35,538 nucleotides of DNA, from positions 1 through 35,538 of IMG/VR virus record IMGVR_UViG_3300046012_000570, one strand, 5' to 3'. Positions 1,435 through 35,538 of the stretch are shown one piece after another. The notes beneath the pieces were generated by a model that saw nothing but the letters and a program-made list of their open reading frames with translations, did no database searches and was not told the DNA's origin. The translations under genes and the position numbers were made by a program. Numbering within the stretch: the stretch's first letter is position 1; every line of letters starts with the position of its first letter. The DNA comes from a virus.

Positions 1435-1631
1435 TTTTGTGCCTCCTTTTTTATTTGCTCTCTCGACCCCGCCTCGATGCGGCCAGCGTAAAGCTGCACA
1501 ATCCGCAGTCCCTTTTGCGCTGTTTGCTCGCTAGGTGGGTTGTTTAAGTTACGGCGGCCCTCCCACAGAAAATCCATAAGATCTTTATAGAGCCCCTTCG
1601 GATCGTTAAAATACGTCTTTTTAGATTGCAT
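1431..1631 (-). CDS. Small hypothetical protein (66 aa)
   Basis: ATG at 1631 lies 11 bases inside the end of the upstream gene, and the stop overlaps the next start as ATGA. The product is helical and charged, with a basic C-terminal stretch (REQIKKEAQK). The segment LMDFLWEGRRNLNNPPSEQ precedes a helix. No family is recognised; position and coupling are the main evidence that it is expressed. Confidence 0.65.
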   Translation of the reverse strand: MQSKKTYFNDPKGLYKDLMDFLWEGRRNLNNPPSEQTAQKGLRIVQLYAGRIEAGSREQIKKEAQK

Positions 1632-1821
1632 TCTTGGCCCCCTCTACGGCTATGGTCTTTTCATCCTCGAAGAAGTCCTCGAGCTCGTCTGCAGCTTTTG
1701 TAAAGGCCTCATCGACTTGAGCCATGGCGCGATCTTCGCTTAAATCGTCGGCAGACTCAATCGCATCTTTAAATTCGTCCAAAACGCCCTCTATAAATCG
1801 TCTGTTAGCGTTATAGCTCAT
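1621..1821 (-). CDS. Small acidic hypothetical protein (66 aa)
   Basis: ATG at 1821 overlaps the stop of the nuclease-FtsK gene as ATGA, so it is probably translated with it. The product is strongly acidic (many D/E between residues 14 and 54) and predicted helical throughout. Such proteins can be DNA mimics or partners of a DNA enzyme, but that is only an inference from charge and position. No family is recognised. Confidence 0.65.
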   Translation of the reverse strand: MSYNANRRFIEGVLDEFKDAIESADDLSEDRAMAQVDEAFTKAADELEDFFEDEKTIAVEGAKNAI

Positions 1822-3773
1822 GCGTATAGTCCTTGCAGTCGCTTAAGTCCGCGCGCGCCCGGGTCCATGTAGAGCATGTCGCCCTTGCCGCTCAGCTCCT
1901 CGGCGCCCGGCTGGTCGATTATGATTTGGCTGTTGACTTTGGAGGTCGTCATAAAGGCAATTTTAGTCGGAATGTTGGCTTTGATTAAGCCGGTCACGAC
2001 CTCCGCGGATGGTCGCTGGGTAGCCAATACCAAGTAGATGCCGATAGCTCGAGCCTTTTGCGCCAGCCGCACGATAAGTTGCTCGGCACTGGGTAGCTCG
2101 TCCTCGATGATCACTGGCTTGCCTTTAGGTCCGGTTGCGACCCTTTTCTCTTTGAGCTTCTGGTTGCCGCCGGTTAGCATTAGATCTGCGAACTCATCAA
2201 CAACCACCACAATTCGCGGCATGTCGCCCTCATAGTCCTCGATGCGGCGTACCTTGGACTTAGCTAGTGTGATGTAGCGTGCGTCCATTACGTCGTTTAG
2301 TTGCATTAGTAGCTTTACGGCCGGCTCTACATCATAGACAACCTCGCCCATGACATGTGGCAGGTCCGCAAACTGCGAGAGCTCGACGCGCTTCGGGTCG
2401 ATTAGGGCCAGTTTTAGCTTGCTAGCCGGCATTTGAGTAGTTAGGCTGCGTAGGATCACGTTCAGCATCACCGACTTACCCGAACCTGTGGCTCCGGCGA
2501 TTAGCAGGTGAGGCATGTCTGACAGCTCGCCATAGACGGTCTCGCCGTAAACATCCATGCCAATGGGTATATTTAGTGTTCCCTTCTTAAAATGCCGCTC
2601 AGCTAAATCTACGCGAGTAAGTGATTTGTTCGGCACTTCGACGCCGACAAGGCTAGTTCCTCTGATAGGCGCCTCAATACGGATGTGCTCGGCCTCGAGC
2701 GCCAGCGCCAAATCGTTGTCTAGTTTAGCGACCTTGCTCATTGGCACACCCTTCGAAGTTTTAAAAGTGTACTGAGTAACCGACGGCCCAACGTGAGTCT
2801 CTTGCATTTCGACCGACACGCCGAACTCCTGCAGCTTGAGCCGTATGCGCTCCTCGGCCGTTAGGTTCTTATTTTCTAGCCGATCGCCGGCGCTAGCGAC
2901 ATAAGCCTTCTCGCTGAACGCCACCTGCTCGGTTTTATGCTTAACCACGACCGGCCGCTCGACGCCTATGACGCCGGACCGAAACACCTCAAAGCTGTTT
3001 TGGCCGTCGAAAATGTCGTGTGGGTTAGGTAGGAATATAGCCTCGGGGTTATTGATCACCTTCGTACAACTGTCGTAGAGCTTATAGAAGGTGGCGAAGT
3101 CGCCATACAAGCCTTCGAACTCAATCGTGTAGGGCTGGATTTGCGGCTTGCCGTCCTTGTTTTTACTGGTCTTACACTCGTTAAAGATGATGCGTTTTGG
3201 TGCCTCGCCGTACTTAGCCTTAATGGTGTGATAGTTAAACATGCCCTGCAAAAAGTGGCTGAACACATCGACGTCGGGGTCGCTGTAGAACTTAACAAAC
3301 TTATGGTCGATGATCTCTATTTCACCAATCGCATTGCGCGTTATAAGGTCCGAAAACGACTTGGCTGGCATGTTTATGGGCTGGCCGTCGATTTGCTCGA
3401 TTGGCGTGACTATCTCTTCCTCTACGCCCAAAATCTCGTGGTACTTTGGCAGCTCCTCGAAATAGAAGTTTATGGCCTGATTGAAGGTGTTGATGATTTG
3501 CTCGCGGCTGCCAGTTTTGCCGTAGTCGATGCCGGTGTCGGACTGGTTATTTATGTAGTCGAGCCCGGCCTGCTTGGCCTCTTCAAAGCTCTTGCCGTTG
3601 TAGTAGGCCTGCAGGGCCCTATGCCCAGCACTGCCGACGACCGCACTCGGCCGCGTGATATCGTCATAGATTTTTAGAATGTAGCGCTTCTTAAAGGCTA
3701 ATTGATTGCGCATGAGCATCGACATACTCGAGTAGGACCACCAGTCGATTAACGGGGCATTAGGTTTTTGCAT
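1818..3773 (-). CDS. PD-(D/E)XK nuclease fused to FtsK/SpoIIIE-type DNA translocase
   Basis: This 651-residue protein has two clear parts. The N-terminus carries RecB/Cas4-type nuclease signatures: an S-rich entry helix (14-31), H51 in GSAGHRALQ, D142 in FSDLI, D156-H-K158 in EIIDHK, and a QGMFNY helix at 176-181. No Fe-S cysteine set is seen. Residues about 303-390 match the FtsK alpha domain. About 398-651 is the motor, with Walker A GATGSGKS (427-434), Walker B VVVVDEFADL (522-531), and LVLATQRPS and GLIKANIPTKIAF motifs. The membrane domain of cellular FtsK is replaced by the nuclease, and the gamma (KOPS-binding) domain is absent. About 25 extra residues follow Walker B. ATG at 3773 has a GGAG site and overlaps the YopX gene by 14 bases. 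Encoded near RecT, it probably processes DNA ends for annealing; this role is inferred. Confidence 0.93.
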   Translation of the reverse strand: MQKPNAPLIDWWSYSSMSMLMRNQLAFKKRYILKIYDDITRPSAVVGSAGHRALQAYYNGKSFEEAKQAGLDYINNQSDTGIDYGKTGSREQIINTFNQAINFYFEELPKYHEILGVEEEIVTPIEQIDGQPINMPAKSFSDLITRNAIGEIEIIDHKFVKFYSDPDVDVFSHFLQGMFNYHTIKAKYGEAPKRIIFNECKTSKNKDGKPQIQPYTIEFEGLYGDFATFYKLYDSCTKVINNPEAIFLPNPHDIFDGQNSFEVFRSGVIGVERPVVVKHKTEQVAFSEKAYVASAGDRLENKNLTAEERIRLKLQEFGVSVEMQETHVGPSVTQYTFKTSKGVPMSKVAKLDNDLALALEAEHIRIEAPIRGTSLVGVEVPNKSLTRVDLAERHFKKGTLNIPIGMDVYGETVYGELSDMPHLLIAGATGSGKSVMLNVILRSLTTQMPASKLKLALIDPKRVELSQFADLPHVMGEVVYDVEPAVKLLMQLNDVMDARYITLAKSKVRRIEDYEGDMPRIVVVVDEFADLMLTGGNQKLKEKRVATGPKGKPVIIEDELPSAEQLIVRLAQKARAIGIYLVLATQRPSAEVVTGLIKANIPTKIAFMTTSKVNSQIIIDQPGAEELSGKGDMLYMDPGARGLKRLQGLYA

Positions 3774-4140
3774 CTAACAACTCCTTGTTCTGGTAGATAT
3801 TACCGATGACTTCAAGTTCAGCCCACCATTTTACATGCAGTCCAAAAGTGTGTGGTGTGTCGCCTCCGCTATTCGATCGTACAGCCCAAGAGGTGTCCGT
3901 GGTGTCGCGTATTATATCTGACACACAGTCGCTGTCCCGATGGGCTTCTGGCGCAGTAGCTTTAACGATATCGCCCTCATAGATCTCTTTGCCGTGTTTA
4001 TCCTTTAGTCCAACATACTCCATAACTACATAGCGAGGGTTGGTCAAAATCGCTACTAGATCTAGGCTCTCTTTGATATCACCCCAATCACTCATAAGTT
4101 TGTACCTCTTGAACCACGCCCTAAATTTAACCTTGTGCAT
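3760..4140 (-). CDS. YopX-family protein (126 aa)
   Basis: The family is recognised from MHKVKFRAW at the start, EYVGLKDKHGKEIYEGDIVK in the middle and GNIYQNKELL near the end, all hallmarks of YopX proteins (named from a Bacillus SPbeta phage protein and common in phages and plasmids). Biochemical function is unknown. The start is placed at the ATG at 4140, which follows GAGGAG by 7 bases, not at an upstream in-frame codon inside recT. It overlaps recT by 14 bases and the nuclease-FtsK gene by 14 bases, so it is part of the same translationally coupled recombination block. Confidence 0.88.
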   Translation of the reverse strand: MHKVKFRAWFKRYKLMSDWGDIKESLDLVAILTNPRYVVMEYVGLKDKHGKEIYEGDIVKATAPEAHRDSDCVSDIIRDTTDTSWAVRSNSGGDTPHTFGLHVKWWAELEVIGNIYQNKELLDAKT

Positions 4141-5020
4141 CGCTGGGCTCCTCGCCGTCGCCCGGGAGCGCATCAGCTAGTGTCTGTGTTGGCTCGGCCG
4201 GCTGTTCCTTGACGGTGTTCTCGACCTTTTTAGCCGGCTCAGCGGCCGGCGTTTGCTCGTCTTTTTCGTTGTCGACATAGTTATAGCTGTCCTCTTCGAC
4301 CGCGGCCTGATCGGCCAAGAGAGCCGTCTGTAACTGCGTAGAAGTAATGCCATCGCGGCTGATGTTGAGTTTCATAACGGTTTTGCGCGCCATGCTGTCG
4401 AAGTCGTCCACCCACTGACCATAGCCTTTTTGGTAGGACTTACTGTACTGCTTAGCGTGCGCCTTAAGCTCGGCCACAGTCATATATAGGGCGTTCTTAA
4501 AGCCACTGCGCAGCTCAAAGTAGGACACATAGCCGATAATTGGCAGCTTAGCCCGCTGGGTGTCGTCCTCGACCCACTCAAAGGCCAGCTCGCCTGTTAG
4601 TCGGTTCTCGCCTTTGTACTCGCCCTCACGAACGTCCGTCGAATTGATCAGCTTGTATTGCCCGGAGCGCAGCGCCAGCTGCTTGAAGCCCTTCGCGCCG
4701 ATTTGAAAAGTGGCTTCCATTTCATAGTAGAATTTGCCATTGGCGTCTTTTTTCTTGTTGCGGTACGGAATTATATAGGCGTGCCCTAAGTTCGGGTTAA
4801 CTGGTAGATCCAACCCGGCGGCAGTGATAGCAGCCGACAGTACCGACTTTTTAGTGCAGTCCTGTAGCACGATGTTATTGTTAACAACCGACATTAGGCT
4901 AGTGATAAATTGCGGGCCGCGATCGCCTAGCAACTTCTCGATCCGCTGCTGCACCTCGTCGCTGCGCAGATAGGCCTGCAGGGATGCGCTACTCTTAGCT
5001 ACTTGTTGATTTTCTGCCAT
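4127..5020 (-). CDS. recT: RecT-family single-strand annealing protein
   Basis: At 297 residues it matches the usual RecT length. Recognisable segments are QFITSLMSVVNNN, LSAAITAAGLDLPVNPNLG, the PYRN loop, FQIGAKGFKQLALRSGQY and DSMARKTVMKLN. The acidic, P/E-rich C-terminal tail (about 240-297) is typical of the family. RecT proteins bind single-stranded DNA exposed by an exonuclease and anneal complementary strands during phage recombination or replication. Here the nearest nuclease is the FtsK fusion two genes downstream rather than a separate RecE. The ATG follows the previous stop by one base; only a weak AGGGG site is present, suggesting coupled translation. Confidence 0.95.
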   Translation of the reverse strand: MAENQQVAKSSASLQAYLRSDEVQQRIEKLLGDRGPQFITSLMSVVNNNIVLQDCTKKSVLSAAITAAGLDLPVNPNLGHAYIIPYRNKKKDANGKFYYEMEATFQIGAKGFKQLALRSGQYKLINSTDVREGEYKGENRLTGELAFEWVEDDTQRAKLPIIGYVSYFELRSGFKNALYMTVAELKAHAKQYSKSYQKGYGQWVDDFDSMARKTVMKLNISRDGITSTQLQTALLADQAAVEEDSYNYVDNEKDEQTPAAEPAKKVENTVKEQPAEPTQTLADALPGDGEEPSDAQG

Positions 5021-10325: not shown

Positions 10326-10544
10326 ATGAGCAAGCTGAAAGATATATGGTCCGTACTAACGCACAAGCACCGCTGCGTGCTGACCTTTAACCACCCGTTC
10401 AGCATCGTAATTAGCCACGTCTTTATGGACGGCCAAGACATCACCGAGTTTTATAGAACAGCAAACAAGTTAGACGGAGCAGTAAAAATAGAGGGTCAAC
10501 ATGTACATCGAGACGACAGCAACCAAGAAGATAAAGCAGCTTAA
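10326..10544 (+). CDS. Hypothetical protein (72 aa)
   Basis: ATG follows GGAGG by eight bases. The middle (FNHPFSIVISHVFMDGQDITEFYR) alternates strand and turn. The last 44 bases overlap the start of the large terminase in another frame, so its C-terminal 14 residues are dual-coding. No family is recognised. Confidence 0.65.
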   Translation: MSKLKDIWSVLTHKHRCVLTFNHPFSIVISHVFMDGQDITEFYRTANKLDGAVKIEGQHVHRDDSNQEDKAA

Positions 10545-11709
10545 ACGCCGCATCCAAGGTATTGCCGGCGGTACTAGCGCCAGTAAGACCATATCGGTAA
10601 TACTCAAGCTGACCGATTTGGCTCAGTCCGACGAGACGCCGACACTTACCAGCATCGTCAGTGAGTCTATGCCGCACCTAAAGCGTGGCGCCATCCGCGA
10701 CTTCTTAAACATAATGATCGCCCACAAGATGTTCGACCAAGACCGCTGGAACAAGTCCGACTTTACCTATACCTTCGCCAACGGCAGCAAGATCGAATTC
10801 TTTAGCGCCGACTCGCCAGACAAGGTGCGAGGTCCGAGACGCGACCGCTTATTTATCAACGAGGGCAACAACATCAGCTGGCAAGCGGCCGACCAACTTA
10901 TGGTCCGTACCCGCGAGCTTATTATCATCGACTGGAACCCAACCAATGAGTTCTGGTGGTACACCGAAGTCATGCCACACCGCGACGTTGACTTCATAAC
11001 CGTAACCTACAAAGACAACGAGGCACTGGACCCCGAGATTGTCGCTGACATCGAAGCCCACAAACACAATAAGAACTGGTGGCGCGTGTTCGGCGAGGGT
11101 CTGCTAGGCGAAGCAGCCGGCCGCATTTACACCGGCTGGGCATTCCTCGAAGAGATACCGCACGAAGCACGCCTAGAGCGCCGCGGCATGGACTTCGGCT
11201 TTACCAACGACCCTACGACCCTGATCGACATACACCGATGGAACAACAGCCTGATACTCGACGAGCAAATGTACCGCAAAGGTATGAAGAACCGCCAGAT
11301 TGCCGCCTTCGTGAATGTGCTACCAGAGCCCAACACGCTGATAGTCGCCGACTCAGCCAACCCCAAAGACATCGACGAGCTGCGCACCGACTACAACCTG
11401 CCAATCATAGGCGCTGTTAAAAAGGGCGTAGGCAAGGGTCCAAACGAAAACTACGTCAACTACGGCATCCAAAAGGTGCAGGACCAGATGATATTCGTAA
11501 CCACGCGCAGCACCAACCTAATCAAGGAGTACCGCAACTACATGTGGCTCAAAGACCCGATGAACGACGAAAGGCACCTCAACACCCCCGAGGACGCGTG
11601 GAACCACTGTCTAGACGCCGTTCGCTACGCCATCGAGAGCATGAACCCCGACGAAGAAGAGCCGGACTTAAGAATTAAAACAGGCAACGTGGATGCCTTA
11701 ATTTACTAG
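10501..11709 (+). CDS. terL: Terminase large subunit
   Basis: This 402-residue protein shows the packaging ATPase and nuclease: Walker A GGTSASKT (23-30), Walker B RLFINEGN (116-123, with N in place of the usual D, as in PBSX-type terminases), and the nuclease acidic triad D231 (GMDFG), D284 (VADSANP) and D372 (LDAVRYA). The N-terminus before Walker A is short but normal for this group. It cleaves concatemeric DNA and pumps it through the portal. GAGGG precedes the ATG. The frame overlaps the previous gene by 44 bases. Confidence 0.96.
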   Translation: MYIETTATKKIKQLKRRIQGIAGGTSASKTISVILKLTDLAQSDETPTLTSIVSESMPHLKRGAIRDFLNIMIAHKMFDQDRWNKSDFTYTFANGSKIEFFSADSPDKVRGPRRDRLFINEGNNISWQAADQLMVRTRELIIIDWNPTNEFWWYTEVMPHRDVDFITVTYKDNEALDPEIVADIEAHKHNKNWWRVFGEGLLGEAAGRIYTGWAFLEEIPHEARLERRGMDFGFTNDPTTLIDIHRWNNSLILDEQMYRKGMKNRQIAAFVNVLPEPNTLIVADSANPKDIDELRTDYNLPIIGAVKKGVGKGPNENYVNYGIQKVQDQMIFVTTRSTNLIKEYRNYMWLKDPMNDERHLNTPEDAWNHCLDAVRYAIESMNPDEEEPDLRIKTGNVDALIY

Positions 11710-25861: not shown

Positions 25862-28800
25862 ATGAGTTTGCTTGGCTGGCTCGGGAAAAGAGCCCAAGGG
25901 CTCGAAGCACAGGTTAGTCCGTTTGATCACGGAGCGACCTACTCGACCGTGGTTAATAACCAACGGCCAGCTACGCCTATTCCCGCGCCAGCTCAAACTC
26001 CAATGTCTCAGCCAGTCCAACAGCAACCACAGCAGAGTCCATGGCAAAAACTGTTCCATAACCCAGTAACTAACTTCGTCGGCAACGACATAATCAAGCC
26101 AGTAGAGCACGTCGCAACACCTGTCGCGCACCTAGCCACAGGCCTCGCAAGCGGCGCTTACCACGTGGCTACGCTTCCGATTGAAGATGCCCGCGCAGCA
26201 GTCGGCGTAGCCACAGGCAACGATGCGGCCGCCAAAGCAGCCCTCGATCGAGGCGGCCAAGGCGTAAGCTTCTTGAAGAACCTAGCCCAAGGCGTCCCGC
26301 GCGCCGCAATTCAGCTAGGCGAGTCGCTCAACCCATCAGGCGGCGACGTCTATAACCGATCATTTACGCCCAACACTCCTGTCGAGCGCTTTTTAGCCGG
26401 CTCGGCTCCAATACCGTCCATGCAGACGGCTTATAAGCAAACAGCCGCCGCTCACGGCAAAGGCGTAGCTGCCGGCGAAGCAGGTCTTACCTCTATAATG
26501 GACGCCCTAGGCGGTAAGCAGATCGCCGAAGCAGGTGCCGCTCACGTAGCCCCAGCACTCAATACTGCCGCCGACAGTGTAGCCGCAGCTGCCGAAAAGC
26601 TGTCGCCAACCAACGTGTCCGCAAAAGCCGGCGTATCGCCCGAAGCGGGCTTTGCTAAACTGCCCGGCAAAGGCCAGCAAGAACTTCCGCTTAATCAAGC
26701 AGCGCCCAAAGAAGTAGCACCCACCGAGCAGATAGTCCAGCCCAAGCAAGTGACTCGCGGCTTTGCCAAAACAGTTAAGGGTAGCGGTGAAGTATCGCCA
26801 GAGCTAAAAGCCAACCTGCCAGACAACACCTACTTGCCAAAAGCCAACGCCGACCTCGTCGCCAACAGCGAGCAGCTATTAAAAGGCGGCCTAAACAAAG
26901 CCGCCAACAAAGTGACTGAGTCCCTAAACCAAACGGCCGGCCGAGTAACCGACCAGCATGTATCCGACGCCATAGCCGTAGCCAAAGCTCTAGACGCCAA
27001 AGGCGGTGCCGCCAACCTTGAGCAAGCCACAAACATCTTCACTCGCCTAGCCGACCACCTGACAGCCGCCGGTCGCAAGGTACAGGCCGCCGCATTGCTT
27101 AAAAACCGCACACCAGAGGGCATGTTCTACCAAGCCGTTAAAGCCTTCAAGACCGCCAATGTTGAGCTAACTCCAAAGCTAAAGACCGACCTGCAAAACG
27201 CCTTAGCCGAGATCAAAGCTACCGCCGTAGACACTCCCGAGCGCGACTTAGCTATCCAAAAGATGACCCGGCTTGTTAATCAGAACCTGCCACGCGGCCG
27301 AGCCCAAGCTGCCGTCGACTTCTGGCGAGCTGGCCTATTAACTGGTCCCGAGACGGTCGCTAAGATAGCCTCCTCTCACTTAATAACAACTCCTATGGAA
27401 TTGCTGTCGCGCCCGCTTGCTGCAGTAACTGACCGAGCCGTATCGGCAGCACCCGACAGCTTACTCAAGTTCCTAACACGCAACGAGCGCGGCGCAACGC
27501 CGGGCGCCCGAACCGTAACCTTTAGCCCAATGGACTACCTATCGGCTGGTCCGAAAGGCTTCGTCCGCGGCGCCAAGGCTGGCATTACCCACATGAAGAC
27601 AGGCCTAGACGAGCCAAATACTGGCGGCTTTGAGCAGTCAATCGGCCGAGGAACACACCAGACGCCGTTTGAAGACTATATATACAGAACCCACGGATCC
27701 GTCTACAAACCCTTTTACAGCACGGCCTATAAGATCGAAGAAGCCAATCAGCTCCGCTTGGCAAAAGCAGCCTTTGGCGAAGATGTCGCCAAAATAACCG
27801 AGTTTATGAAGAACCCAAAGACGGTCGAGCAGATGAACAACTACGCCGAGCAGTTCGCCATGCAGAATATCACCGAACCGGGCAAGTTAACTCAAACCCT
27901 TCAACACTTCAAGCCGGGCGGCGTACCAGTCGGCGAATGGATCGCACCATTTAGCCGCATACCAGCTGCCCTAGGAGTAAAAGGCATCGTTGACTACACC
28001 CCGATCGGCACACTTCGATCAATAAAGACTCTCTACGACGGCATAACCAAGGGCACATTTGACCAGCGTCACTTCGTTGAGACACTGAGCAAATCGGCCG
28101 GCGGCGGCACAGCTCTAGTAGGTGCCGGCATGATGTTAATGGCTTCTGGCCGTATGACACTGCAAGAGCCAAGTGACCCTAAAGAGCGCGCCCTATGGGA
28201 AGCCCAAGGCACAACCCGCAACTCAGTAAAAATAGGCGACAAGTGGGTCACCCTTAACGCAACTGGTCCTGTAGGCATCGCTCTCGGCATCGGTGGCGCC
28301 TTTGAGCGCGCCCTGCACGGCGGCTCCGACGGATCCAATGCCGTAGCTCAAGCTATAGGCTCTGGCGCCAAGTTGATAGCCGACCAGCCGTACATGAAAG
28401 GCGTAACCGGCGTAGGCAATGTATTCCAAGACCCTGTACGATACGCTGGGTCCTACCTCCAAAACTCGGCTCAATCACTAGTACCAGCGGGCGCACAGCA
28501 AATCGCTAGGGGTACCGACACAAAGCAGCGCGCATATCCCTCAAGCGTTCCCGACGCTATAAAATCAGGTATTCCGGGCTTACGCGAAACACTACCCGCT
28601 AAACATGACCTCTACGGCTCAACCGAGCCCGGCAACGGCACTCAAGGTGGCGTAGCGGGCACAATTAACCCGTTCTACCCAAGTGGTACCCGCAATGCCA
28701 ATGACCCAGTAACTAAAGAGCTACAGCGCCTGTACGACACACTAGGCACCAAGAGTCCCGCCATTACTCCGACAGATAGAATCGTGGTCGACAAAAAAAG

Positions 28801-29674
28801 CATCAAACTAACACCGGCACAACAGCAGACCATGCTAGAAAAGACTGGCCCGATAATTCACCAAGGCCTAAATCGATTACTGCAAAATCCAAACTACGCC
28901 CAACTTGACGACAACCAAAAGACCTCGCAAATCAACGACCTGATAAATGCCGCCCAAAATGCCTACATAAAGGTAAGTGGTCTAGATCCCAACAAAAAGC
29001 TCGACTCCAAAGCCACAGCGGCGCTCTACGACGTTAAAACGCTAGGCAGTAGCGTAAACATAGGTGGTACCACCATAAGCAACAAGCTCGAGCCGCAGAC
29101 ACAGCAATACCTCGCCAAAATGGGTGCCATGAGCACCGACGACCGCTCCAAGCTATTTAACAGCCAAAATGGCGCCGAGTACCAATACAACCTCGCCAAG
29201 TGGCAGAACGATAAAGTCAATGGTACGCTTACAACAGCCGAAGACATCCGACAGCAACAGTCACTCGCTAAAGACAAAATCGGCGCCAACTACGACAAGA
29301 ACACTCGCGACCTCTACTCGCTGAGCAAAGCCGAAATCAATAACTACGTGACCACTCAGCCAGACGGCAAAAAAGTAGCCGATCAGCTAAACGCCTACGA
29401 CCAAGCGCTCTACAACGCCAAACTGATAAGCACGCCTAAGTTCAAGCACGGCTTCGCGCCGGGCGGCAGCGGCGGTTCGAGCAAGAGCCCTAGCTACAGC
29501 AAACTCGGCTCACTAAGCAACTTCGGCGGCGACCTAGGTGCGCTAAAATCTACCGAGTCCGCGATCAAGACACCAAAAATATCACTACCCAAGAGCTCAA
29601 AGGCGGTGTTTAACTCCAAGGCCCCGAAGATTAAGCCGATAAAAGTAAGTAAAAAAGGAAAGGTAACAGCATGA
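25862..29674 (+). CDS. Large internal virion / DNA ejection protein (1270 aa)
   Basis: AAAGGAGG lies before the ATG. The order is: P/Q-rich linker (about 38-60), alanine-rich amphipathic helices to about 400, and a helical core. Hydrophobic stretches around 745-765 (GGGTALVGAGMMLMASG) and 795-815 (NATGPVGIALGIGGAFE) follow. The C-terminal part is N/D/K-rich, ending in a very basic tail rich in KPIKVSKKGK-type sequence. Size, amphipathic and hydrophobic helices and position fit the large internal core proteins that insert in the host membrane during ejection. The basic tail may bind DNA. No lysozyme or other enzyme motif was seen. Confidence 0.72.
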   Translation: MSLLGWLGKRAQGLEAQVSPFDHGATYSTVVNNQRPATPIPAPAQTPMSQPVQQQPQQSPWQKLFHNPVTNFVGNDIIKPVEHVATPVAHLATGLASGAYHVATLPIEDARAAVGVATGNDAAAKAALDRGGQGVSFLKNLAQGVPRAAIQLGESLNPSGGDVYNRSFTPNTPVERFLAGSAPIPSMQTAYKQTAAAHGKGVAAGEAGLTSIMDALGGKQIAEAGAAHVAPALNTAADSVAAAAEKLSPTNVSAKAGVSPEAGFAKLPGKGQQELPLNQAAPKEVAPTEQIVQPKQVTRGFAKTVKGSGEVSPELKANLPDNTYLPKANADLVANSEQLLKGGLNKAANKVTESLNQTAGRVTDQHVSDAIAVAKALDAKGGAANLEQATNIFTRLADHLTAAGRKVQAAALLKNRTPEGMFYQAVKAFKTANVELTPKLKTDLQNALAEIKATAVDTPERDLAIQKMTRLVNQNLPRGRAQAAVDFWRAGLLTGPETVAKIASSHLITTPMELLSRPLAAVTDRAVSAAPDSLLKFLTRNERGATPGARTVTFSPMDYLSAGPKGFVRGAKAGITHMKTGLDEPNTGGFEQSIGRGTHQTPFEDYIYRTHGSVYKPFYSTAYKIEEANQLRLAKAAFGEDVAKITEFMKNPKTVEQMNNYAEQFAMQNITEPGKLTQTLQHFKPGGVPVGEWIAPFSRIPAALGVKGIVDYTPIGTLRSIKTLYDGITKGTFDQRHFVETLSKSAGGGTALVGAGMMLMASGRMTLQEPSDPKERALWEAQGTTRNSVKIGDKWVTLNATGPVGIALGIGGAFERALHGGSDGSNAVAQAIGSGAKLIADQPYMKGVTGVGNVFQDPVRYAGSYLQNSAQSLVPAGAQQIARGTDTKQRAYPSSVPDAIKSGIPGLRETLPAKHDLYGSTEPGNGTQGGVAGTINPFYPSGTRNANDPVTKELQRLYDTLGTKSPAITPTDRIVVDKKSIKLTPAQQQTMLEKTGPIIHQGLNRLLQNPNYAQLDDNQKTSQINDLINAAQNAYIKVSGLDPNKKLDSKATAALYDVKTLGSSVNIGGTTISNKLEPQTQQYLAKMGAMSTDDRSKLFNSQNGAEYQYNLAKWQNDKVNGTLTTAEDIRQQQSLAKDKIGANYDKNTRDLYSLSKAEINNYVTTQPDGKKVADQLNAYDQALYNAKLISTPKFKHGFAPGGSGGSSKSPSYSKLGSLSNFGGDLGALKSTESAIKTPKISLPKSSKAVFNSKAPKIKPIKVSKKGKVTA

Positions 29675-34712: not shown

Positions 34713-35538
34713 ATGACACAAATCCCCGGCATAGATATATCAAGGTTCCAAGGCAAGGTAGACTTCGCCGCAATTAAGAAAAGCGGCATCCAGTTCGTCG
34801 TTATGCGCGCCAGCGGTGGCGATGACGGACTCTACACCGATGTCAACCTAAAAGCCAATCAAGCTGGCGCCCGAGCGGTCGGCCTCGGCGTAGGCTACTA
34901 CCACGAACTCGGCGGCCAAGCCCCGAGTACCGAAATGGACTACTTCCTACGTGCCATCGGCCCGATACGAACAGGCGAAGTGCTAGCAGTCGTGCGCGAA
35001 CACTCCTACAGCCTATCGCCCTCCTACTGCCTAGCGGCCCTAAACTACCTAAAATCTAAAGCGGGCTTTAACCCGATGCTATACGCCAGCTCTGATACGA
35101 TCATGAACCAAGGTGACTGGTCACCTATAGCCAAGGCCAACTACGGCCTGTGGGTCGCCAACTACGGCGTGAATAACGGCAAACCAAATGCGCAGCCACC
35201 AATCGGCCCGTGGCCGTTCTGGGCGATGTGGCAGTACACTAGCGTCGGATCCGTCCCGGGCGTAAGCGGCAATGTTGACCGCAACCTCTTTAACGGCGAT
35301 ATAAACGCCTTTAAGCGATACGGCAAGCCAGCACCAGCTCCGACTCCCGCACCAGTTCCCAAGCCAGTACCAGCGCCGACGCCAATACCTCCGGCGCCCA
35401 CTCCGACTCCCGCACCAGTTCCAGCCCCAGCGCCTATACCTGCGCCAATCCCCGAGCCGGCACCCGCTCCCATTCCTCCTGCGCCAGCCCCAAGCCCGCA
35501 AGCGAGTCCAAACTGGCTACTAGCCGTATGGGGCGCTC
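34713..35538 (+). CDS. GH25-fold cell-wall hydrolase (endolysin candidate), 3' end outside window
   Basis: AAGGAG precedes ATG 34713 and 275 codons are visible. GIDISRFQG (6-14), the GYYHEL strand, MLYASSDTIM, LWVANYG and FWAMWQYTS-VDRN (about 169-191) are hallmarks of glycosyl hydrolase family 25 muramidases. D8, E96 and D189 are present, but the usual DxE pair reads V94-R95-E96, so one catalytic aspartate is missing. Residues about 205-262 are a P/A-rich linker, and SPNWLLAVW may open a membrane or binding segment. It is probably the lysis enzyme, or a binding version of one. Confidence 0.85.
   Translation, partial: MTQIPGIDISRFQGKVDFAAIKKSGIQFVVMRASGGDDGLYTDVNLKANQAGARAVGLGVGYYHELGGQAPSTEMDYFLRAIGPIRTGEVLAVVREHSYSLSPSYCLAALNYLKSKAGFNPMLYASSDTIMNQGDWSPIAKANYGLWVANYGVNNGKPNAQPPIGPWPFWAMWQYTSVGSVPGVSGNVDRNLFNGDINAFKRYGKPAPAPTPAPVPKPVPAPTPIPPAPTPTPAPVPAPAPIPAPIPEPAPAPIPPAPAPSPQASPNWLLAVWGA

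Follow-up and report, generated by a model that had tools for sequence, protein, structure and literature searches.

Recombineering rests on phage exonuclease-annealase pairs, and the well-known pairs of this kind use exonucleases that lack a motor. In both RecE-RecT and lambda Exo-Bet (SynExo), the gene for a PD-(D/E)XK exonuclease is located beside an annealase gene, and RecE and lambda Exo are each stand-alone enzymes with no ATP-driven motor. In archaea and some bacteria, end resection is carried out by HerA-NurA, which combines a hexameric dsDNA translocase of the FtsK/HerA class with a nuclease (PMC9960219), and these two components are separate proteins. In contrast, the viral locus described herein joins a PD-(D/E)XK nuclease and an FtsK alpha-beta motor in one chain, which is likewise encoded in the neighbourhood of an annealase gene.

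The window, by which we mean the whole stretch of DNA that was analysed, comprises the 35,538 bases of an IMG/VR virus record. The fused exonuclease-FtsK gene occupies positions 1818..3773 on the minus strand, where a single frame encodes 651 aa. A preliminary description of this DNA had proposed a nuclease and an FtsK motor in one chain, and Pfam, PHROGs and the homologues described below all agree. Pfam places PDDEXK_1 at residues 12-190 (E 1.3e-5; 25.7 bits against a cut-off of 22), FtsK_alpha (PF17854) at residues 304-382 (E 1e-23) and FtsK_SpoIIIE (PF01580) at residues 391-519 plus a second stretch (E 7.6e-41), and the PHROGs matches divide the protein into an N-terminal exonuclease (phrog_1218 and phrog_69) and a C-terminal FtsK/SpoIIIE part (phrog_1358). 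The gene sits in a DNA-metabolism operon, with recT two genes upstream as had been reported from the sequence. This recT gene (4127..5020, minus strand) encodes a single-strand annealing protein of 297 aa (PF03837, E 2e-36; TIGR00616 over cut-off), and the one gene between it and the fusion gene, a YopX-like gene (3760..4173, minus strand; PF09643, E 5.7e-19), overlaps both. The three genes are co-directional, with overlaps of 47 nt between recT and the YopX-like gene and 14 nt between the YopX-like and fusion genes, and an ORF of 66 aa in the same direction (1621..1821, minus strand) shares 4 nt with the 3' end of the fusion gene.

Nearly all of the relatives retrieved with only the nuclease half carry the fusion. 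When viral contigs were scanned with an alignment of just this half, 29 viral loci were recovered, comprising 24 full fusions in one ORF (roughly 600-716 aa, with two near-identical contigs), three loci cut by contig ends and two without FtsK. In one of the cut loci, the missing motor half is located at the other end of the contig, as expected of a circular genome. The fusion is also encoded by three cellular genomes of one class (L036, L037 and L050), one of which is named Candidatus Saccharibacteria, and the other two are grouped in the same class. Counting the near-copy once, there are 28 distinct fused loci, consisting of 27 complete fusions, including that of the window, and one that is split. 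The two halves diverge in a correlated manner (Mantel r 0.72, with 0 of 5000 permutations as high), which is consistent with joint inheritance of the fused halves.

Some relatives of the nuclease exist without the motor. In two diverged examples (L034 and L035), the ORF stops after the nuclease and includes no FtsK. One of the two still has an annealase, and nuclease and annealase can thus be paired in the absence of the motor. In L034, a 266-aa phrog_10048 protein (4146-4946) adjoins the unfused nuclease and, judging by its position, may be another annealase. Stand-alone nuclease homologues of 290-300 aa were also observed in three of 380 Patescibacteria-type genomes (L038, L039 and L040; about 1486-2403, minus strand), with neither FtsK nor an annealase in the 3.8 kb around the homologue, and the nuclease tree leaves these readable either as products of loss or as the ancestral form. 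Among the matching records in a phage collection (249) and a plasmid collection (915), none covers 80% of the fusion query and the best-listed matches involve the FtsK half only; the nuclease half has no match in the phage collection at E 0.01. An entry in a viral structure library, A0A8S5RDL0, which is named only 'PD-(D/E)XK nuclease', gave an alignment of 391 columns and may likewise belong to the fused family. Conversely, lone FtsK genes of gut phages and of mycobacteriophage Optimus have no related nuclease and no RecT/phrog_561 annealase within a few kb on each side, one of these neighbourhoods being limited by contig ends. In Optimus, a few genes separate the lone FtsK-like protein (L058, 4208-7407) from a Ku-like protein that binds DNA ends, which is possibly a further case of phages connecting FtsK motors to end processing.

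On the basis of profile matches and a structural model, residues 1-272 (2958..3773, minus strand) are a PD-(D/E)XK exonuclease of the RecB/RecE/AdnA type that is predicted to be active. The PDDEXK_1 model scores over cut-off in 15 of the 20 fusion records searched, and wherever it matches among these records the fusion is the sole PDDEXK_1 match. The His, Asp and DxK motifs and the downstream Gln motif of RecB/RecE/Cas4-type PD-(D/E)XK exonucleases are all present. They include the signatures named in the preliminary description, namely H51 of the active-site His motif GxAxH (3621..3623), the active-site Asp D142 (3348..3350) and the DxK motif D156-H-K158 (3300..3308), all on the minus strand. 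H51, E118, D142, D156, K158 and Q176 are identical in all 25 full-length fused proteins that were aligned. A profile alignment to human MGME1, which is weak on its own (E 0.09), sets H51 on the His of 'GKRFHEALE', D142 on the Asp of 'LLDCV' and D156-x-K158 on 'DWK'.

The nuclease half was folded and used for structure searches on its own, since a Foldseek search with the full chain returned mostly FtsK. The resulting AlphaFold2 model, made from 27 sequences (pLDDT 93.8, pTM 0.89), bears out the PD-(D/E)XK fold, and in structure searches it came closest to the AdnA nuclease domain and the putative exonuclease 3l0a (Z 17.1 each), with the Argonaute-associated ACE1 next (15.2). These are followed by RecE (3h4r, 14.6), AddB (14.4), Dna2 (13.4), Cas4 (13.2), MGME1 (12.6) and lambda exonuclease (9.1); nucleases absent from the neighbour lists, such as NurA, are not excluded by their absence. 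No cysteine is invariant or near-invariant in the 25 fused proteins or in the 27 nuclease domains. The iron-sulphur subgroup of Cas4, AddB and Dna2, which carries four conserved cysteines, was therefore ruled out for the nuclease half.

The linker that follows, residues 273-302 (2868..2957, minus strand), is poorly predicted, with pLDDT values down to 32-57. In the full-chain AlphaFold model (mean pLDDT 86.4, pTM 0.53), the ill-defined segment spans about residues 268-300, and given this flexible linker and the pTM value, the placement of the two domains relative to each other is undefined. Residues 303-651 are, according to profile matches and the model, a complete FtsK alpha-beta motor. The alpha domain comprises residues 304-382 (2628..2864, minus strand) and corresponds to the DNA exit side of the FtsK ring (PMC7321959), whereas the beta motor domain comprises residues 391-648 (1830..2603, minus strand). 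In Foldseek alignments of about 370-400 columns, the motor half is 35-38% identical to the FtsK structures 2ius and 6t8o. As the preliminary description had stated, the Walker motifs are intact: K433 and S434 of Walker A (GATGSGKS, residues 427-434; 2472..2495, minus strand) and D526 and E527 of Walker B (VVVVDE, residues 522-527; 2193..2210, minus strand) are invariant in all 25 proteins. Walker B is followed by an insertion (residues 535-562; 2088..2171, minus strand) that is a beta hairpin in the model of the window protein and varies in length in the family, such that 14-83 residues separate the Walker B Glu from the next conserved helix among the 25 fused proteins.

Residues equivalent to those of Pseudomonas aeruginosa FtsK were assigned by hand on a sequence alignment, with residue roles as published (PMC7321959). 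With this assignment, R575 (the FtsK arginine finger R620) and the pore-loop residue K598 (FtsK K643) are invariant (25/25), R587 (FtsK R632) is kept in 23 of 25, and the equivalents of the DNA-contact residues K657 and R661 vary and are poorly conserved. Every one of the 25 proteins ends 6-14 residues after R645, and thus the gamma domain, which serves KOPS and XerD, is absent from the entire set. The N-terminal membrane domain of cellular FtsK is absent as well; the nuclease domain occupies this end of the protein, just as had been proposed.

One alternative, which we consider unlikely, is that the protein is a plain RecE-like exonuclease partner of RecT whose FtsK part acts as a ring clamp or loading platform rather than as a moving motor. 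Lambda Exo is processive as a plain trimeric ring, and the two related nucleases without FtsK (L034 and L035) belong to otherwise similar phages, both of which count in favour of such a role. However, a mere scaffold is not expected to retain the invariant Walker A, Walker B, arginine finger and K598 residues noted above. Moreover, mean identity among the 25 proteins is higher for the motor (49%) than for the nuclease (39%), which is evidence against a decaying motor.

The most consistent feature of the genomic context is the annealase. An annealase gene adjoins the fusion gene in all 28 distinct fused loci, and each locus thereby exhibits the arrangement of a two-component phage recombinase (SynExo), with an exonuclease gene beside an annealase gene. 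Given that the loci were picked by nuclease motifs alone, this pairing was not selected for. The association extends beyond the RecT of the window to three families, with 12 loci carrying RecT (phrog_148 type), 12 carrying a diverged RecT-like protein (phrog_561/4171) and four carrying a Bet-like protein (phrog_252/2780). The annealase gene is located upstream except in two of the four Bet-like loci, where it is directly downstream, and its distance from the fusion gene ranges from an overlap to 2.4 kb; in L021, the annealase is represented only by a 95-aa piece at the contig edge. The PF03837 profile detected RecT in the first 10 records and then in 15 of the next 20, and iterated searches, together with scans against families, brought up the annealases that it missed. 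At least four changes of annealase type are needed on the nuclease tree, throughout which the fusion persists, and annealases of different types have therefore replaced one another next to this fusion. No member of the YqaJ/lambda-exonuclease family was found in the 20 fusion records tested.

We judge it probable that the fusion is the exonuclease half of a phage exonuclease-annealase recombination system, and that it carries its own dsDNA pump. What the sequences show directly is which domains the chain has, that its catalytic and ATPase residues are intact, that the fusion is conserved and that an annealase is its strict neighbour, where such proximity speaks for an association rather than for a mechanism. 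A role in genome handling seems to us distinctly unlikely. On this view, the motor would act in moving or segregating phage DNA, or in the resolution of concatemers ahead of packaging, with the nuclease as the enzyme that trims ends. FtsK-type motors do serve in DNA segregation and transfer, and the location of the gene in a DNA-metabolism operon is in keeping with such a function. Nevertheless, the window encodes its own terminase large subunit, separate from the fusion gene (10501-11709), the domain needed for KOPS and XerD is missing from all 25 proteins, and the constant neighbour is an annealase.

The preliminary description had also raised an attack on host DNA, which the annealase context does not support. 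More broadly, we regard as very doubtful that the protein serves to destroy the DNA of the host or to attack rival phages or plasmids, with the motor providing processivity, a reading for which the defence protein DndH offers a comparison. Restriction endonuclease (REase) and HerA/FtsK domains co-occur in DndH, and other HerA/FtsK-capture systems act in defence (PMC10853773). Against this reading, a recombination annealase is present at every fused locus, the 651-aa chain carries no target-recognition or modification domains, and PF03837 RecT is also missing from three genomes of the class that have related capsid genes but no fusion. Lastly, an artefact of sequencing or assembly that joined two genes has a negligible chance of being correct and was ruled out because the fusion recurs in other viral contigs, in a circularly cut contig and in three cellular genomes. 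The junction is shared by all 28 distinct loci, which derive from many separate metagenome records, and the other fused proteins are 35-60% identical to that of the window; no point in support of an artefact was found.

Several features of the window and of the related loci bear on the host or on the phage itself. Relatives of the window capsid protein, with no more than 43% identity, are present in six of 393 genomes of the class that contains Saccharibacteria, and a Saccharibacteria-type host is likely for the window on the basis of such sequence relationships. In the named Saccharibacteria metagenome-assembled genome, the fusion belongs to a prophage-like locus (L037) downstream of host-like genes, including a murG-like ORF, and of a tRNA-Gln gene, and a run of eight tRNA genes (10510-11474) adjoins its fusion/annealase pair. 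A 1270-aa protein of the window (25862-29674) has a match among internal virion proteins (phrog_6651, E 1.6e-7), pointing to a podovirus-like virion. A GH25 endolysin with a proline/alanine-rich tail (34713-35537) continues past the end of the record, and thus the record is cut inside a gene. A lack of AddA/RecB in the hosts was considered as a rationale for the system. Although none of 99 genomes of the class has an AddA match over cut-off, this rationale was set aside because weaker UvrD-like matches occur in all of them and frames of 950-1130 aa may be other helicase-nucleases.

If the fusion indeed serves as a pump-bearing exonuclease for an annealase, its mechanism might proceed as follows. 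Six copies of the chain would come together through their FtsK alpha-beta parts and form a hexameric ring on the duplex, at a DNA end that is broken or replicated; this ring would draw DNA in at its beta side and pass it out at its alpha side. FtsK rings are known to translocate the duplex in the beta-to-alpha direction, with the DNA exiting on the alpha side (PMC7321959), and because the nuclease is attached N-terminal to the alpha domain, it would be positioned at this exit. Six RecE/AdnA-type nuclease domains on the alpha side would thereby receive the emerging DNA and would either degrade one strand or cut both unevenly, yielding single-stranded DNA. RecT, the phrog_561 protein or Bet would then coat this DNA and anneal it to homologous DNA. 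In bacterial HerA, the beta-barrel domain forms a putative DNA exit, and bacterial HerA-NurA makes a 3' tail during translocation (PMC9960219). Ring assembly, direction and the coupling of motor to nuclease are modelled here on FtsK and HerA-NurA.

We lean, if only slightly, towards a more specific proposal, in which a single-chain, ATP-driven end-resection machine evolved in phages of Patescibacteria and the nuclease at the exit of its FtsK pump hands single-stranded DNA directly to the annealase that the phage happens to encode. The preliminary description had suggested a resection machine feeding RecT, and the unbroken pairing with three annealase families provides strong, albeit indirect, support for this idea. 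If correct, this would constitute a third motor-nuclease design for resection, besides the helicase-nucleases (RecBCD, AddAB and AdnAB) and HerA-NurA, and an exonuclease-annealase pair with its own duplex pump would represent a new solution to DNA-end processing. The single chain makes directly testable whether a dsDNA translocase and a RecB-type nuclease together give processive resection. Few genetic tools exist for Patescibacteria, and the locus would provide a recombination system from phages of these bacteria.

Comparison with known systems places the fusion among several families without matching any of them fully. RecE is a close structural neighbour of its nuclease and lambda Exo a more distant one, as judged by the Z scores given above. 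In AdnAB, AddAB, RecBCD and Dna2, a RecB-type nuclease and a motor likewise share one chain, and AdnA offers the best structural match to the nuclease of the window protein. However, these enzymes are driven by superfamily 1 helicases, which move along single strands, whereas the window protein has a ring translocase of the duplex type and its nuclease is N-terminal. Cellular FtsK and SpoIIIE have an alpha-beta motor of the same fold (35-38% identity over about 370 residues), but the window protein is without their gamma domain and has a nuclease in place of their membrane part and linker.

DndH and related HerA/FtsK-capture defence proteins combine an REase with HerA/FtsK in one chain, some with an FtsK alpha domain (PMC10853773). 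The combination of domain classes is therefore not wholly new, which tempers the earlier suggestion that the fusion was previously undescribed; this suggestion still stands for the two-domain fusion with an annealase partner, for which a search of open-access literature turned up no previous account. At about 1700 aa, DndH also contains parts for target recognition, an inactive methylase part and an SF2 part, and it acts with DndF and DndG. In contrast, the 651-aa window protein has two domains only and an annealase partner, with matches restricted to the nuclease and FtsK classes and none to the SF2, target-recognition or methylase-like domains of DndH.

With respect to HerA-NurA, no NurA model reached E <= 1 in a Pfam scan of the window protein, the N-terminus of which matches PDDEXK_1 instead. 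DUF87, the HerA central domain, scored 20.6 bits against a cut-off of 23.2 while the FtsK models scored far more strongly, and the NCBIfam model for anti-phage HerA was far below its cut-off. The best reading, by analogy, is that the window fusion would work like HerA-NurA, but with both functions in one chain and on a different nuclease fold.
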